Below, piece after piece: positions 3,093 through 11,111 of a DNA stretch of 24,465 nucleotides. The notes beneath the pieces are model-generated. The model saw nothing but the letters and a program-made list of their open reading frames with translations, had not been told where the DNA came from and made no database searches. Each line of letters starts with the position of its first letter. Positions within the stretch are counted from its first letter, which is position 1. The position numbers and the translations under genes are program-made. The stretch lies in the IMG/VR virus record IMGVR_UViG_3300042889_001762, positions 1 to 24,465 of that record; one strand, 5' to 3'. Source of the stretch: a virus.

Positions 3093-3130
3093 TTAGCTGT
3101 TGACCTTTTTGTGAAAATATCCGATAAGGA
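3093..3130 (+). repeat. Exact 38-base repeat containing a promoter, copy 1
   Basis: The same 38 bases recur at 4818-4855 in the same orientation. The repeat spans TTAGCTG, the -35 and -10 boxes and the GGA beyond them. Flanking bases differ on both sides. Confidence 0.95.
3100..3128 (+). promoter_or_regulatory. Sigma70-like early promoter for RNA ligase and kinase
   Basis: TTGACC and GATAAG are separated by 17 bases. The expected start of transcription is near 3135, upstream of the ATG at 3156 but downstream of the GTG at 3111. Confidence 0.8.
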
Positions 3131-3155
3131 ATTATATGATGAAAAGGCTTCAAAT

Positions 3156-4346
3156 ATGAATTACGAATTTCCCTATATCCGAAACATCTCTGATGTGCTA
3201 CCTGCTATCGAAGGTCGCGACGAATTCGTTGTGGCTGTCAAGGAAGGCTACACTGTCATCAACTATAATGTGATGATGGCTGATACGTTCGACTGCAACA
3301 TTCGCCGTGAGTGTCGTGGTATTATCTTCGATACTGAGTCGGGCGATATCCTTCGTCGTCCGTACCACAAGTTCTTCAACGTCAATGAGCGCGAAGAAAC
3401 TCAGGATAATGTAGTCGATATGTCAGGTTACTACACCATTCTTGAGAAGCTTGATGGCTCGATGATCGCTCCGTTCATGATCTGGCCAGGTGAGATGGTG
3501 TGGGGAACGAAGATGGGTGCTACCGATGTTGCAAAGCCTGTCGAACAGTTTGTTGAAGATCATCCTAACTATAGTCAGTTTGCGAAGTTTGTAATCAATC
3601 GTGGGTACACACCTATCTTCGAATGGTGCTCGCGTAAACAGCGTATCGTTCTCGATTACAAGGAAGATCAGCTAATTCTGACCGCTATGCGTGACATTAC
3701 TACTGGTCGTTATATGTCGCGTGATCTCATGATCAATACTGCTGATCAGTACTTTATCCCTGTTGTTGGTCAATGGGACAATACAATGGTTGAACAATGG
3801 CACAATACAGTGCAGAGGGGTAACAAGACGCTGTCTTCGTTTGTTAACTTCGTTCGTGATCTCGAGGATCTCGAAGGCTTTGTTGTTCGTTTCGATGATG
3901 GGCACATGCTGAAGTTGAAGTGCGACTGGTATGTTCAGATCCACAAGGCAAAGGAAAAGATCCTTCAAGATCGTAACATCGTTGAGTTGATTCTTGATGG
4001 TAACCTCGATGACGTGAAGGCTCACTTACCTCAGGAAGATCGTGATCGGTTGACTGTGTTCGAAGCCCACTTCAGTAATGCATATGCTGATGTAGTCTAT
4101 ATGTTGGCTAATGATCTTGATTGGATACGCGAAGAAAACATTGATCGTAAGACCTTCGCTCTTGATCACGTTAAAACATATCGTGATCCGTATATACCTA
4201 CATTGATCTTCAAGAACTTTGATGTGGTCGACCATGCCGAATATTGGATTTCCGTTGATGACACGATTCGTAAAAACCTGACCAAGACGGCAAAGTACGA
4301 AGCAATTCGCGATGCATGGTTTCCTGGAGTGAAGTATAATGCCTGA
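3156..4346 (+). CDS. rnlA: RNA ligase, T4 Rnl1 type
   Basis: The 396-residue product is an ATP-dependent RNA ligase of the T4 Rnl1 family (374 residues in T4). Visible motifs are ECRGIIF (Arg53-54 region), nucleotidyl-lysine motif I EKLDGS with Lys98 (T4 Lys99), FEWC near 154-157, motif IV EGFVVRF near 239-245 and motif V LKLKC near 251-255. The family seals 5'-phosphate to 3'-OH ends and in T4 repairs tRNA cut by the host anticodon nuclease. The frame is open from a GTG at 3111, but that codon lies inside the promoter, upstream of the predicted RNA start. The ATG at 3156, with AAAAGG before it, is therefore preferred. The last eight bases overlap the kinase gene, which implies coupled translation. 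Confidence 0.93.
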   Translation: MNYEFPYIRNISDVLPAIEGRDEFVVAVKEGYTVINYNVMMADTFDCNIRRECRGIIFDTESGDILRRPYHKFFNVNEREETQDNVVDMSGYYTILEKLDGSMIAPFMIWPGEMVWGTKMGATDVAKPVEQFVEDHPNYSQFAKFVINRGYTPIFEWCSRKQRIVLDYKEDQLILTAMRDITTGRYMSRDLMINTADQYFIPVVGQWDNTMVEQWHNTVQRGNKTLSSFVNFVRDLEDLEGFVVRFDDGHMLKLKCDWYVQIHKAKEKILQDRNIVELILDGNLDDVKAHLPQEDRDRLTVFEAHFSNAYADVVYMLANDLDWIREENIDRKTFALDHVKTYRDPYIPTLIFKNFDVVDHAEYWISVDDTIRKNLTKTAKYEAIRDAWFPGVKYNA

Positions 4347-4821
4347 ATGTATAATGTTAGTTGGTGTTCCTGCATCTGGTAAGTCTACTTGGCAGTACAA
4401 AAAGTACGGAGAATACCCGCCGATTGTAGCGTCAACTGATAACATAATCCAAGAAATAGCTAGCAGCTATGGTATGACATATGATGAAGGATTCAAGGGA
4501 CTTATTCAGATTGCCGAACAGATAATGTGGAGGCAAATTACTACATGTCTGATGCGCGGAAATGATTTCATTATCGACCGCACCAACCTGACAGCAAAGT
4601 CTCGTGCTAAGTTCATTCAGAAACTGAAACTACACAAGTATGAGATCGAGTGCGTAGTGTTTCCTGAGGTTGGGTCGGAAGCTCTTTCGAAGGAAGAGTG
4701 GAAGCGTCGCCTGAACTCGCGGCGTGGCAAGACCATTCCTCAGGAAGTTCTTGATAGGATGATCGATAGTTATGAGATTCCTTTGATGTCGGAAGGTTTC
4801 TCGAAGATCACATTCATTTAG
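4339..4821 (+). CDS. Polynucleotide 5'-kinase, kinase domain only
   Basis: The 160-residue product matches the N-terminal kinase half of T4 Pnk. The P-loop GVPASGKST (residues 9-17, Lys15 and Ser16 as in T4) is followed by ASTDNI with the probable general base Asp34. DRTNLT comes later, then the arginine-rich lid RRLNSRRGKTIPQEVLDRM. T4 Pnk has about 300 residues and a C-terminal HAD phosphatase that removes 3'-phosphate or 2',3'-cyclic phosphate; that half is absent here. The downstream metallophosphoesterase may replace it. The start codon overlaps the end of the RNA ligase gene and the stop TAG forms part of the second promoter repeat. Confidence 0.88.
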   Translation: MPECIMLVGVPASGKSTWQYKKYGEYPPIVASTDNIIQEIASSYGMTYDEGFKGLIQIAEQIMWRQITTCLMRGNDFIIDRTNLTAKSRAKFIQKLKLHKYEIECVVFPEVGSEALSKEEWKRRLNSRRGKTIPQEVLDRMIDSYEIPLMSEGFSKITFI

Positions 4822-7786: not shown

Positions 7787-7871
7787 GGGTCGGTAAAGCC
7801 AGTGGCTCTGGCAGTCAGACTGTAAATCTGATCCGTTCGCGGGGGAGGATCGATACCTCACTGACCCACCA
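7787..7871 (+). tRNA. tRNA-Tyr (anticodon GTA)
   Basis: The acceptor strands GGGTCGG/CTGACCC pair with one wobble. The anticodon arm TCAGA-CTGTAAA-TCTGA gives GUA. A long variable arm, as expected for bacterial Tyr, is present. The T-arm is GAGG-ATCGATA-CCTC-like and CCA is encoded. The T-loop sequence ATCGATA is slightly unusual. Confidence 0.92.
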
Positions 7872-7901
7872 ATTTTTTGTTATAATTCGATGAGGTAAAA
7901 A

Positions 7902-8288
7902 ATGGCTAAATGGCGTTTATCCACACAGATTAAAAAATGCATTACCGAAACCCAAATATACGAGAAGGGCGACGAACAGATTGTCCTAGAGTATGGTTGG
8001 CGTTGGGGTAATGTGTTTATCTTCACAGAAGGGGATGAGCAACCTGACATCTATCTCGGAGAAGATGCTAATATCGATGTCAATTGTCTCGAGTGGGATA
8101 CAGAGATCGATATGCTCGAAGACAATTGCTCTTCGTATACCCAGCTTCCGGAATCATTAGAGAACGATGAGGACTTCCAAAAGGAGTTCGAGTATGATAT
8201 GCACGAGTGGCTCGATTCTAACGGTTGGGAATGCGTAGATACAGAGATTTATTTCGAAGGCCCGTTGACTTTAGAGCGGGTTGAGTAG
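7902..8288 (+). CDS. Acidic hypothetical protein (128 aa)
   Basis: GATGAGG precedes the ATG. The product is strongly acidic, with many Glu, Asp and Trp (YGWRWGNVFIFTEGDEQPDIYL; LEWDTEIDMLEDNC; MHEWLDSNGWECVDTEIYFEG). No signal peptide or membrane segment is visible. Three Cys are spread without a metal-site pattern. Small acidic phage proteins sometimes mimic DNA or inhibit host enzymes, but nothing here identifies a target. It ends only a few bases before the tmRNA acceptor piece and may share a transcript with it. Confidence 0.7.
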   Translation: MAKWRLSTQIKKCITETQIYEKGDEQIVLEYGWRWGNVFIFTEGDEQPDIYLGEDANIDVNCLEWDTEIDMLEDNCSSYTQLPESLENDEDFQKEFEYDMHEWLDSNGWECVDTEIYFEGPLTLERVE

Positions 8289-8295
8289 ATATATA

Positions 8296-8364
8296 GTATA
8301 TCAGTTGTTTGAAAGCAGACTGAAAGATGTAAAGACCTGGGTGCAACTCCCAGCGGGTCCACCA
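8296..8364 (+). ncRNA. ssrA: tmRNA acceptor piece (permuted, two-piece ssrA)
   Basis: This piece ends with a T-arm CTGGG-TGCAACT-CCCAG (8337-8353), the acceptor strand CGGGTCC (8354-8360), A73 and CCA (8362-8364), but no 5' acceptor strand lies upstream. That strand is GGGCCCG at 8716-8722, beyond the HNH gene, and pairs 7/7 with one wobble, G3-U70, the alanine identity pair. Further nested helices join the two pieces: GATGTAAA (8326-8333) with TTTACATT (8735-8742), AGACT (8317-8321) with AGTCT (8752-8756), and ATCAGT (8300-8305) with ACTGAT (8759-8764). This reproduces helix P2 of tmRNA. The 5' boundary is estimated. The order, acceptor first and coding second, is that of alphaproteobacterial permuted tmRNA genes. 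Confidence 0.93.
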
Positions 8365-8368
8365 TTTT

Positions 8369-8376
8369 TATAAATA
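8369..8376 (+). promoter_or_regulatory. T4-type late promoter for the HNH gene
   Basis: An exact TATAAATA lies five bases after the tmRNA CCA and 20 bases before the HNH start codon, with AGGAGG in between. Confidence 0.8.
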
Positions 8377-8395
8377 GCCATAGGAGGAAACTACT

Positions 8396-8728
8396 ATGGC
8401 TTTTAATAGAGACGAACACAAGAAGGAATGGAATAGAGCTCGGCAAAACAAAATTGTCACTCTTATTGGACGATGGAAGATGATCAAAGGGTGTGCCCGT
8501 TGTGGGTACAAAGATCATCCATCTGCTTTAGTTCTAGATCATATTGATCCTGCTACTAAAGATCGGAAGAAAAAGGGTCAAAGAGCTTATAATCCCTTGT
8601 GGTGCAGAAAGCGAATAAAACAAGAACTGGCTAAGTGTCAAGTTTTATGCGCCAATTGCTCGAACATACGCACACATGAAGAAAAGCATTATGCGTATCG
8701 TCAACCCAAGTTTACGGGCCCGAACTAG
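8396..8728 (+). CDS. HNH endonuclease inside the tmRNA gene
   Basis: The 110-residue product is a zinc-stabilised HNH nuclease: C33-A-R-C36, then LDHIDP with His49 as probable general base, and C85-A-N-C88. The family often has His right after the second Cys pair (CxNCH); here it is Ser89, with His94 nearby, so activity is not certain. The basic N-terminus suggests DNA binding. AGGAGG lies about nine bases before the ATG, and the gene has its own late promoter. It fills the intervening segment of the permuted tmRNA gene. Its last codons (ACG GGC CCG AAC TAG) overlap the first 13 bases of the tmRNA coding piece. It may be a homing endonuclease that mobilises this locus. No group I intron sequence surrounds it. 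Confidence 0.88.
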   Translation: MAFNRDEHKKEWNRARQNKIVTLIGRWKMIKGCARCGYKDHPSALVLDHIDPATKDRKKKGQRAYNPLWCRKRIKQELAKCQVLCANCSNIRTHEEKHYAYRQPKFTGPN

Positions 8729-8880
8729 GATCGATTTACATTGGATAGGAAAGTCTAGACTGATTGCCTGGCAAAGTGCCACAAAACGTAAATGCAAACG
8801 ATAACAACGCATATGAAGGTCTTGCACTAGCTGCATGATTTTTCGGGGCCTGGTGGGAGCCTTGCAACAGAATCCCACCA
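8716..8880 (+). ncRNA. ssrA: tmRNA coding piece (permuted, two-piece ssrA)
   Basis: The piece begins with the acceptor strand GGGCCCG (8716-8722), then a D-loop region with GGATCGA (8728-8734), comparable to the conserved GGATTCGAC of tmRNA. The P2 strands TTTACATT, AGTCT and ACTGAT follow, and pair with the upstream acceptor piece. A TGGC/GCCA hairpin (8769-8781) lies where pseudoknot PK1 is expected. The resume codon GCA at 8794 opens the tag. After the tag stop, GGTGGGA (8852-8858) pairs with TCCCACC (8873-8879) as a terminal hairpin. tmRNA with SmpB rescues ribosomes stalled on broken mRNA and tags the product for ClpXP. The 3' boundary is estimated. Confidence 0.93.
8794..8838 (+). other. 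tmRNA tag-peptide reading frame
   Basis: GCA at 8794 to TGA at 8836 encodes ANDNNAYEGLALAA. The start AND and the end ALAA are those of bacterial proteolysis tags, and the C-terminal LAA is the ClpX recognition signal. ANDNN- is typical of alphaproteobacterial tags. Confidence 0.95.
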
Positions 8881-8892
8881 TTTCCCGGGTTG

Positions 8893-8900
8893 TATAAATA
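8893..8900 (+). promoter_or_regulatory. T4-type late promoter
   Basis: An exact TATAAATA lies 46 bases upstream of the small gene at 8947 and just after the tmRNA coding piece. Confidence 0.8.
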
Positions 8901-8946
8901 CTATGTCCACTACAGGGCATACACACATACACAAAGGTATTTACCA

Positions 8947-9239: not shown

Positions 9240-11111
9240 ATGTTTGTTATTATTCCCATCAACGGGCTCGGAACCCGCTTCGCTCAAGACAATTATACCT
9301 TCCCTAAGCCGCTTATCAATGTACTTGGTAAGCGGATGATCTTTTGGGTAATTGATAGCTTGAAGCTCGATATAAACCATACATTGGTTATACCATACTC
9401 TGATCAACTCGACAAGTTTAACTTCCGAGACATTGTCCAGGATCAATATCCCAATCTCGACATTCGATTCATTCCGATCGACAGACCGACAAAGGGTGCT
9501 GCCGAGACGTTGCTTGTTGCTATCAATGAGCTGGGTGAAGTCGACAACATGCCTACGTTGGTTGTGGATTGTGATACATTCTATGAAGATGATATTGTAG
9601 GCAACTTCCAAAACCATCCACGTAATGTGATCTACTATTTCGAGGACGAGGGTAAGGATCCTCTGTTCTCGTACCACAGTGTAGGCGAAGATGGTTATGT
9701 GGTAACGATCCAAGAGAAGATTCGAATCTCCAATAGAGCATCGACCGGAGCATATGGCTTCGATAGCGTTGAGGGTCTAAAGAAGGCATGCGAGCAGGTA
9801 CTGGGTAATAATTACCTACTAACAGGCAATGAATACTACGTGTCAGCTGTGTATCGTTGGATGATCGACCAGGGCTTTTACGTAGAAGCTCAGCATGTAG
9901 ATAAGTTCCACTGCGTCGGGACTCCTCTTCAATTGAAAGTGTTCTGCGAGACATACAACCAGGCTCCTAAGCGCTTCTGCTTTGATCTAGACTCTACTCT
10001 CGTCACTAAGCCACGTGTAGAAGGCGATTATTCCACCGTAGAACCGATTGAGAAGAACATTACACTGCTTCGATACCTCAAGCAAGCAGGACATACTATC
10101 ATCGTCTATACGGCGCGTAGAATGCGTACACACAAGGGTAATATGGGCGCTATCGTAGCTGATGTTGGCAAGCTCACAATGGATACGCTCGATAAGTTTG
10201 ATATTCCTTACGACGAGCTAAACTTTGGTAAGCCGTGGGCAGACTTCTATATCGACGATCTTGCTGTCGATTGTAATACGGATATTGAAAAGTCGATTGG
10301 TTATTATAATACAATGACCAAGCCAAGAGACTTTAACACTATTGAGATTTCGGACAATCTGGTTACGAAGACTGGTAATGTAGATGGAGAGATCTTCTTC
10401 TATAATGCAATCCAACAATACCCCTTCATCAAGGATCTGTTCCCTAAGCTGATTAGCAGCACTAAGGACTCGCTAACTATTGAGCGTGTCAATGGTGTTA
10501 CGTTCTCGTATCTATTCCAGAACAACAGCCTTCAACCAGCTGTATTTAAGCAGATGTTGAGTAACCTGATGGCTGTCCACAACACTCCGGTTGCTGGTGT
10601 AAAGGAGGCAGCTGTTGGCTCAATGCTCCTTTGGCAGTTTGAGGATAGAATTAAGGGATTCGATTACTCAAAGTATCCAGGCGGTCCCGATCTAACCAAA
10701 CGTGTTCTCCGGTTCATGGATGGATATGAATTCGACCGAGAAATCGAGCCATGTATCATTCACGGAGATCCAGTATTCTCTAACATCTTATATGATACGA
10801 ACCTCGACATTAAGTTCATCGACATGCGTGGTAAGCTAAGCAACACCCATACTATACTGGGAGATCCGGCATATGACCTTGCTAAGATATACCAGTCATT
10901 GATGGGATATGACTTCGTGCTTAATGATCGGAGAATCGTTCGCAATACAGAGCTGATCGATATCTTTGAGCAACACGTAAAGAGCTATGGCCTGAGTATG
11001 AAAACGATTAAGCAGATGACTGGTTGTCTATATGTCTCGCTAGTACCACTTCACGACAACGATAAGTGTGTTAAGTATCTCGAGCTTGGCCAGAAACTCC
11101 TGGAGGAATAA
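9240..11111 (+). CDS. Three-domain nucleotidyltransferase / HAD phosphatase / APH-type kinase
   Basis: The 623-residue product combines three enzyme folds. Residues 1-235 are a sugar-phosphate nucleotidyltransferase: NGLGTRF, FPKPL, and metal-binding VDCDTFYEDD. Residues 240-355 are a HAD-type phosphatase: FCFDLDSTLV, IVYTARR, FGKPWADFYIDD. Residues 365-620 resemble choline/aminoglycoside kinases, with catalytic loop CIIHGDPVFSNIL and metal-binding FIDMRG. Such sets make activated sugars or phosphocholine-like groups for surface glycans. Here the protein may decorate virion or host surface polysaccharide, but the substrate is unknown. The stop overlaps the start of the next gene by one base, so the two products probably work in one pathway. 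No strong ribosome binding site is visible. Confidence 0.82.
   Translation: MFVIIPINGLGTRFAQDNYTFPKPLINVLGKRMIFWVIDSLKLDINHTLVIPYSDQLDKFNFRDIVQDQYPNLDIRFIPIDRPTKGAAETLLVAINELGEVDNMPTLVVDCDTFYEDDIVGNFQNHPRNVIYYFEDEGKDPLFSYHSVGEDGYVVTIQEKIRISNRASTGAYGFDSVEGLKKACEQVLGNNYLLTGNEYYVSAVYRWMIDQGFYVEAQHVDKFHCVGTPLQLKVFCETYNQAPKRFCFDLDSTLVTKPRVEGDYSTVEPIEKNITLLRYLKQAGHTIIVYTARRMRTHKGNMGAIVADVGKLTMDTLDKFDIPYDELNFGKPWADFYIDDLAVDCNTDIEKSIGYYNTMTKPRDFNTIEISDNLVTKTGNVDGEIFFYNAIQQYPFIKDLFPKLISSTKDSLTIERVNGVTFSYLFQNNSLQPAVFKQMLSNLMAVHNTPVAGVKEAAVGSMLLWQFEDRIKGFDYSKYPGGPDLTKRVLRFMDGYEFDREIEPCIIHGDPVFSNILYDTNLDIKFIDMRGKLSNTHTILGDPAYDLAKIYQSLMGYDFVLNDRRIVRNTELIDIFEQHVKSYGLSMKTIKQMTGCLYVSLVPLHDNDKCVKYLELGQKLLEE

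Follow-up and report, generated by a model that had tools for sequence, protein, structure and literature searches.

Our analyses suggest that free-standing HNH homing endonucleases probably use the discarded spacer of circularly permuted tmRNAs as a splice-free, intron-like refuge. The DNA under study is a 24,465-base fragment from IMG/VR (hereafter the window, to whose full length all coordinates refer), and it carries a permuted tmRNA gene with an HNH gene in the segment between its two RNA pieces. The preliminary description of this DNA had recognized this arrangement. Added here are its recurrence with three HNH families, an own late promoter and a masking hairpin for the HNH gene, and the location of the HNH stop codon within the coding piece of the tmRNA.

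The proposal of a permuted, two-piece tmRNA was borne out by the alpha_tmRNA covariance model and by two further searches (Table 1). With cmscan, RF01849 matched 8261-8882 (73.7 bits, gathering threshold 50, E=1.4e-18) and the merged permuted model RF04321 matched 8303-8838 (76.3 bits, gathering threshold 47), both matches spanning the insert. ARAGORN independently called a permuted tmRNA at 8268-8929 with the tag ANDNNAYEGLALAA, which fits the conserved ANDN...LAA pattern. Judged by these matches, 8261-8882 is an intact circularly permuted tmRNA of the alphaproteobacterial type. The positions given earlier for the T-arm/CCA piece and for its distant acceptor partner hold, with 7/7 pairs including the G3-U70 wobble; P2 and the two outer helices (8317-8321/8752-8756 and 8300-8305/8759-8764) also pair as described, and the coding piece contains the tag and the D-loop that had been noted. 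When an annotated phage collection was searched at the DNA level with the window tmRNA, no match was obtained, and with a relative's tmRNA as the query only Melnitz, Mosig, Phosso and Erythrobacter phage fragments matched.

Table 1. Features of the permuted tmRNA and its HNH insert in the window
Feature	Position	Strand	Basis
tmRNA 5' piece (acceptor/T-arm), ends CCA	8296-8364 (5' end putative)	+	RF01849/RF04321, ARAGORN, sequence
T-arm and CCA piece	8337-8364	+	sequence
T-stem; T-loop TGCAACT	8337-8341/8349-8353; 8342-8348	+	sequence
Acceptor 3' strand CGGGTCC; ACCA	8354-8360; 8361-8364	+	sequence
P2 5' strand GATGTAAA, partner 8735-8742	8326-8333	+	7/7 pairs in tested 7-nt register; covariation
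Intervening segment, 351 nt; removal by tRNA-type processing expected	8365-8715	+	flanked by CCA and acceptor 5' strand
T4-type late promoter box TATAAATA, 4 nt 3' of CCA	8369-8376	+	exact match
RNA hairpin AGCCAUAG...CUAUGGCU, encloses Shine-Dalgarno, contains AUG	8376-8401	+	predicted fold
HNH Shine-Dalgarno AGGAGG, 9 nt 5' of ATG	8382-8387	+	sequence
HNH endonuclease gene, 110 aa	8396-8728	+	PHROG 2255 (E=2e-20); tblastn; alignment
tmRNA 3' (coding) piece	8716-8880	+	Rfam, ARAGORN, sequence; tag to 3' helix 95-100% identical to L003
Acceptor 5' strand GGGCCCG (coding piece)	8716-8722	+	
D-loop-like AACTAGGATCGA, conserved (coding piece)		+	sequence
P2 3' strand TTTACATT, partner 8326-8333	8735-8742	+	7/7 pairs in tested 7-nt register; covariation
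Tag reading frame ANDNNAYEGLALAA and stop TGA	8794-8838	+	ARAGORN, survey
3' helix GGTGGGA/TCCCACC (coding piece)		+	sequence

The assumed phage origin also stood: judging from its gene content, the window is T4-like phage DNA that encodes gp32, T4 RNA ligase 1, polynucleotide-kinase-like, DNA end protector and tail-tube-cap proteins, the nearest relatives of its gp32 being found in cyanophages. No smpB was found in four related phage contigs. The RNA ligase 1-like and polynucleotide-kinase-like genes (3111-4821) lie in tRNA/tmRNA-rich surroundings, a setting that may be compared with T4 tRNA repair. A manA RNA motif (RF01745, 61.8 bits, gathering threshold 55.2) is located at 1698-1867, where the phage DNA is rich in tRNA genes. 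At 7787-7872 there is a tRNA-Tyr-like gene (anticodon GTA, acceptor GGGTCGG/CTGACCC, 3' end CCACCA) with odd D- and T-arms, which was called neither by ARAGORN nor by Rfam. Just 3' of the tmRNA, 9240-11111 encodes a 623-aa fusion protein with a nucleotidyl transferase-like N-terminus, a phosphoheptose-isomerase/PNK-like middle part (PHROG 1238/415) and an APH-like kinase at its C-terminus.

Related coding pieces were collected from IMG/VR and their T-arm/CCA partners were placed by script, yielding 106 distinct permuted tmRNAs, whose pre-selection required 6/7 or more acceptor pairs. In this pre-selected set the acceptor pairs 7/7 in 105 of the 106 tmRNAs, G-C, C-G, T-A and A-T exchanges occur at acceptor positions 4-6, and 14 of the 15 distinct acceptors retain G3-U70. 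P2 serves as an independent test of pairing, because it was not used for the selection: its mean pairing was 4.78 of 7 compared to 3.64 +/- 0.11 with shuffled partners (7/7 in the window), and covariation was seen over 68 distinct P2 pairs. The expectation that compensatory changes would support the nested helices was thus confirmed for the acceptor and P2; the third helix (8317-8321/8752-8756) agrees with the alpha_tmRNA model only, and the fourth (ATCAGT/ACTGAT) is uninformative since it is nearly invariant among close relatives. The intervening segment of the window is indeed enlarged, at 351 nt versus a median of 87 nt in the 106 viral tmRNAs, and empty versions of the locus exist in L003 (57 nt), L017 (88 nt) and many other contigs without an HNH gene. 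Two further permuted tmRNAs (L028, L029) have a very long tag frame, ANDNASNVYSFVDFGSLKNTYVNEDFALAA, of 30 aa versus the usual 10-15.

The HNH gene in the intervening segment of the window was likewise confirmed, by its match to PHROG 2255, and tblastn revealed relatives of the ORF in 199 phage records, one of which, in Streptomyces phage Braelyn, has a tRNA-Lys gene on each side. Another relative (L001:5001-5282) appears to interrupt a gene for phage DNA polymerase and is flanked at either end by polymerase-like coding sequence. The stop codon of the window HNH gene, TAG at 8726-8728, falls within the conserved AACTAGGATCGA, so that gene and coding piece overlap by 13 nt. The earlier label 'homing-type' is presumptive for this protein: the HNH profile match stands, but the histidine of the CxNCH motif, which is kept in all seven aligned homologues (CxxCH), is absent, the window sequence reading CANCS. 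Since serine replaces a histidine that is conserved in seven homologues, this copy may be inactive or catalytically impaired, although its Cys pairs and DHI are present. A single-sequence AlphaFold model made without an alignment was too poor for use (pLDDT 53), and a sequence search of the PDB gave nothing significant. The searches placed no close relative of the window HNH in any other tmRNA, and a pattern scan of bacterial genomes revealed no relative of this HNH or of the PHROG 655 HNH described below.

The HNH gene appears to be equipped for late expression. The box TATAAATA occurs six times in the window where 1.7 are expected, a number that was reached in 1 of 100 shuffles; within the spacer, it is found in only three of the 106 surveyed tmRNAs, namely the HNH-bearing ones. 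In all seven HNH insertions examined, 4-41 nt separate it from the preceding CCA and 26-35 nt from the ATG that follows. The leader of the window (8365-8412) has a predicted folding energy of -16.4 kcal/mol (z -5.8), and none of 200 shuffled sequences was as stable. If transcription begins about 6 nt past the late box, the 5' arm of the hairpin is largely lost, and the predicted late transcript (8382-8412) folds at only -2.3. The same holds for the predicted folds of the seven HNH leaders, which in the precursor lie between -13.7 and -25 kcal/mol and in the late transcript are about 0; it should be noted here that the hairpin of the L134 leader is weak (z -0.6) and no better than shuffles. From these predicted folds we infer that the ribosome site is hidden in read-through RNA and exposed in late transcripts. 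This is the scheme described for I-TevI, I-TevII, I-TevIII, T4 segB and Aeh1 mobE, in which early read-through RNA masks the ribosome site and late transcripts are without the blocking arm (PMC2988022). By sequence and predicted fold, the window HNH gene has both a late promoter of the T4 type and a masking hairpin.

The arrangement is recurrent, and as classified by sequence profile the tmRNA spacer of IMG/VR phages houses no fewer than three unrelated HNH families: PHROG 2255 in the window, PHROG 655 and PHROG 3322. L009 has a 505-nt spacer with an HNH of 156 aa that differs from that of the window and belongs to PHROG 655, 'homing endonuclease' (E=2e-13). When IMG/VR was scanned with this protein by pattern and tblastn, 70 loci were obtained, and all eight near-full-length matches (L147-L154; 64-100% identity) lie in permuted tmRNA spacers with five different tags. 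A further member is found in the tmRNA spacer of the 174-kb contig L379; a search of viral sequences for additional late-promoter inserts yielded one new PHROG 655 group (L364/L368/L379), the remainder being chance matches. Distant from these is a free-standing relative of the L009 HNH in Synechococcus phage S-SRM01. In L134 and matching contigs, a 574-nt spacer is filled by an HNH of 188 aa from PHROG 3322 (E=7e-20). Rfam models run across the insert in L009, L148, L015 and L150. Overlap of the HNH stop codon with the coding piece is common and not universal, the ORFs of L150 and L379 stopping earlier. The PHROG 655 proteins of the tmRNAs have dN/dS values of about 0.06-0.17 and, by this sequence measure, are under purifying selection. 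An assembly artefact was rejected, the same arrangement being present in many contigs from different metagenomes. We also observed that in L009, L015, L150 and L153 the sequences after the CCA and before the acceptor are complementary across the 500-nt HNH gene and extend the acceptor helix, by up to 16 bp in L150, one strand being HNH coding sequence in L009 and L015.

Comparisons between alleles indicate that the PHROG 655 inserts are mobile. The 672-nt cassette shared by L148 and L009 is 85% identical, versus 66% in the upstream and 72% in the downstream flank. The match between L150 and L009 covers 1523-2027 of L009, which is almost exactly its intervening segment, and L017, an empty allele with its 88-nt spacer, is collinear with L009 and 80% identical on both sides. 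Insert-bearing and insert-less alleles, and a cassette that moves apart from its flanks, were thus found for PHROG 655, and the evidence for the window is indirect: compared to the insert-less L003, its identity is 95-100% over the stretch that begins with the tag and includes most of the 3' helix, and only about 50-70% in the two tRNA-like halves that flank the insert. Such a mosaic would be expected if the insert and its flanks were copied together, and is suggestive only. GGGCC acceptors are over-represented in the HNH-bearing tmRNAs (5/8 versus 7/103, p=3e-4), a count from which L379 was left out because its search pattern favoured GGTCC; as several of the eight are related, this excess is no more than a hint pointing to target-site protection.

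Taken at its most likely, the refuge would work as follows. Read-through transcription would give a tmRNA precursor, and host tRNA-processing enzymes, acting as in the known pathway for permuted tmRNAs, would cleave it 3' of the CCA and 5' of 8716 and discard the HNH segment. The two tmRNA pieces would pair via the acceptor and P2 strands seen in the sequence, and because the HNH segment is removed and the pieces pair, the insertion would cost the phage nothing. In the precursor, the predicted hairpin would conceal the ribosome site and start codon of the HNH gene, so that presumably no enzyme is made early, and the cut before 8716 would also strip the HNH stop codon, whose position is evident from the sequence. 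Late in infection, by analogy with the published I-TevI/SegB/MobE scheme, transcription starting at TATAAATA (8369-8376), past most of the 5' arm of the hairpin, would produce a translatable HNH message. The endonuclease would then cut or nick the insert-less tmRNA loci of co-infecting relatives, and repair would copy the cassette with flanking tRNA-like sequence, as the cassette/flank identities and mosaic alleles suggest.

HNH genes are not the only ORFs in this location. Close to the CCA, 12 of the 103 non-HNH tmRNAs have a Shine-Dalgarno sequence and an ATG that opens an ORF of 35 aa or more, compared to 2.0 +/- 1.5 in dinucleotide shuffles, and homologous spacer ORFs recur across different tmRNAs (L047/L092, membrane-protein-like; L035/L103/L116, with CxC...CCxxC and ferredoxin-like by eye; L100/L122; L118/L120/L080). 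Non-HNH spacer ORFs were noted in L044, L047, L088, L092, L100, L118, L120, L122, L035, L103, L004, L136 and L021. From these sequences, the spacer of phage permuted tmRNAs apparently is a recurrent, unannotated slot for small genes. No late promoter was found for the non-HNH small ORFs in the 106-tmRNA survey, and therefore not every gene in the slot is a homing gene. Many of the spacer ORFs end within the coding piece and others before it; the acceptor cut would therefore leave many of them without a stop codon. It is conceivable, though we regard it as doubtful, that the spacer is a general splice-free gene slot coupled to tmRNA maturation, in which the acceptor cut creates non-stop mRNAs that are rescued and tagged by the matured tmRNA. 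If so, an RNase P-type cut at the acceptor start would remove the stop codons of many spacer ORFs, including that of the window HNH, and without a separate late transcript the slot would silence itself. The same abundance of non-HNH ORFs, including the homologous sets L047/L092, L035/L103 and L118/L120, and the degenerate motif of the window HNH would fit a spacer that does no more than offer small genes a neutral site in tightly packed phage genomes, where an HNH gene is passive cargo without site-specific homing to tmRNAs. We consider this rather unlikely, however, in view of the PHROG 655 sub-family, which in IMG/VR is seen only in the tmRNA spacer and across divergent phages, of the cassette identity that exceeds flank identity, and of the T4-type homing-gene promoter and hairpin, which are confined to HNH inserts.

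The remaining explanations concern the tmRNA itself. Had the insertion broken it, the HNH gene would lie in a dead locus, and the window does lack the CCA-proximal extended helix of L009, L015 and L150; but the 7/7 acceptor with G3-U70, the T-arm, P2, the tag and the 3' helix are all intact and the pieces co-vary as in insert-less relatives, which makes a pseudogene very improbable, and we rejected it. Even less credence can be given to an HNH gene within a self-splicing, intron-like element of the tmRNA. Homing genes are known in group I introns of tmRNA genes (PMC11915505), yet no group I or II intron was matched anywhere in the window (Rfam, E<=1), on which ground this candidate was rejected; moreover, the insert lies exactly between the CCA and the 5' strand of the acceptor and not in the T-loop, and a spacer is already present there in insert-less relatives. 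A splice-free refuge for HNH homing genes hence remains the reading we prefer.

Several components of this refuge are known from other systems. Removal of the permuted tmRNA spacer by tRNA-processing enzymes has been described (PMC11915505), and the two-piece tmRNAs of Melnitz, Mosig and their relatives are, like that of the window, of the alphaproteobacterial permuted ssrA type in T4-like (Kyanoviridae-like) phages, but no protein gene has been reported in their spacers (PMC9004378). SegB, I-TevI/II/III and Aeh1 MobE share with the window HNH the T4-like phage background, a small GIY-YIG or HNH gene, a late promoter directly upstream, and a stable hairpin that masks the ribosome site in early/middle read-through RNA; T4 segB even lies between the tRNA-Arg and tRNA-Ile genes (PMC2988022). 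However, those genes reside in group I introns or between genes, whereas the window HNH is located inside one RNA gene, in a spacer that is expected to be cleaved out, and its stop codon falls within the mature coding piece. The tmRNA genes with group I introns similarly contain a homing gene that is absent from the mature RNA, but there a LAGLIDADG gene sits in a self-splicing T-loop intron of a standard tmRNA, in contrast to the HNH gene in the intron-free spacer of a permuted gene (PMC11915505). Permuted tmRNA spacers can also be enlarged by a tRNA-Ala gene or a repeat, and no protein-coding gene has been described in them (PMC11915505). Our search, which covered literature other than subscription journals and preprints, retrieved no published endonuclease or other protein gene in a permuted-tmRNA spacer, and for this reason we rate the arrangement as a T4-type homing gene that occupies a new tmRNA niche independent of splicing; phage two-piece tmRNAs and intron homing genes as such were already known.

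Homing genes spare their hosts by sitting in introns, inteins and intergenic gaps. The segment that is cut out by RNA processing would be a further refuge for them, one that needs neither splicing nor ligation since the mature RNA is functional in the form of two paired pieces, and which is directly testable because it was found repeatedly and with three HNH families. Such a refuge suggests a reason for the strong length variation of phage tmRNA spacers, and would provide a route for the transfer of tmRNA alleles between phages. It also brings to light a set of small phage genes that lie unannotated within an RNA gene.
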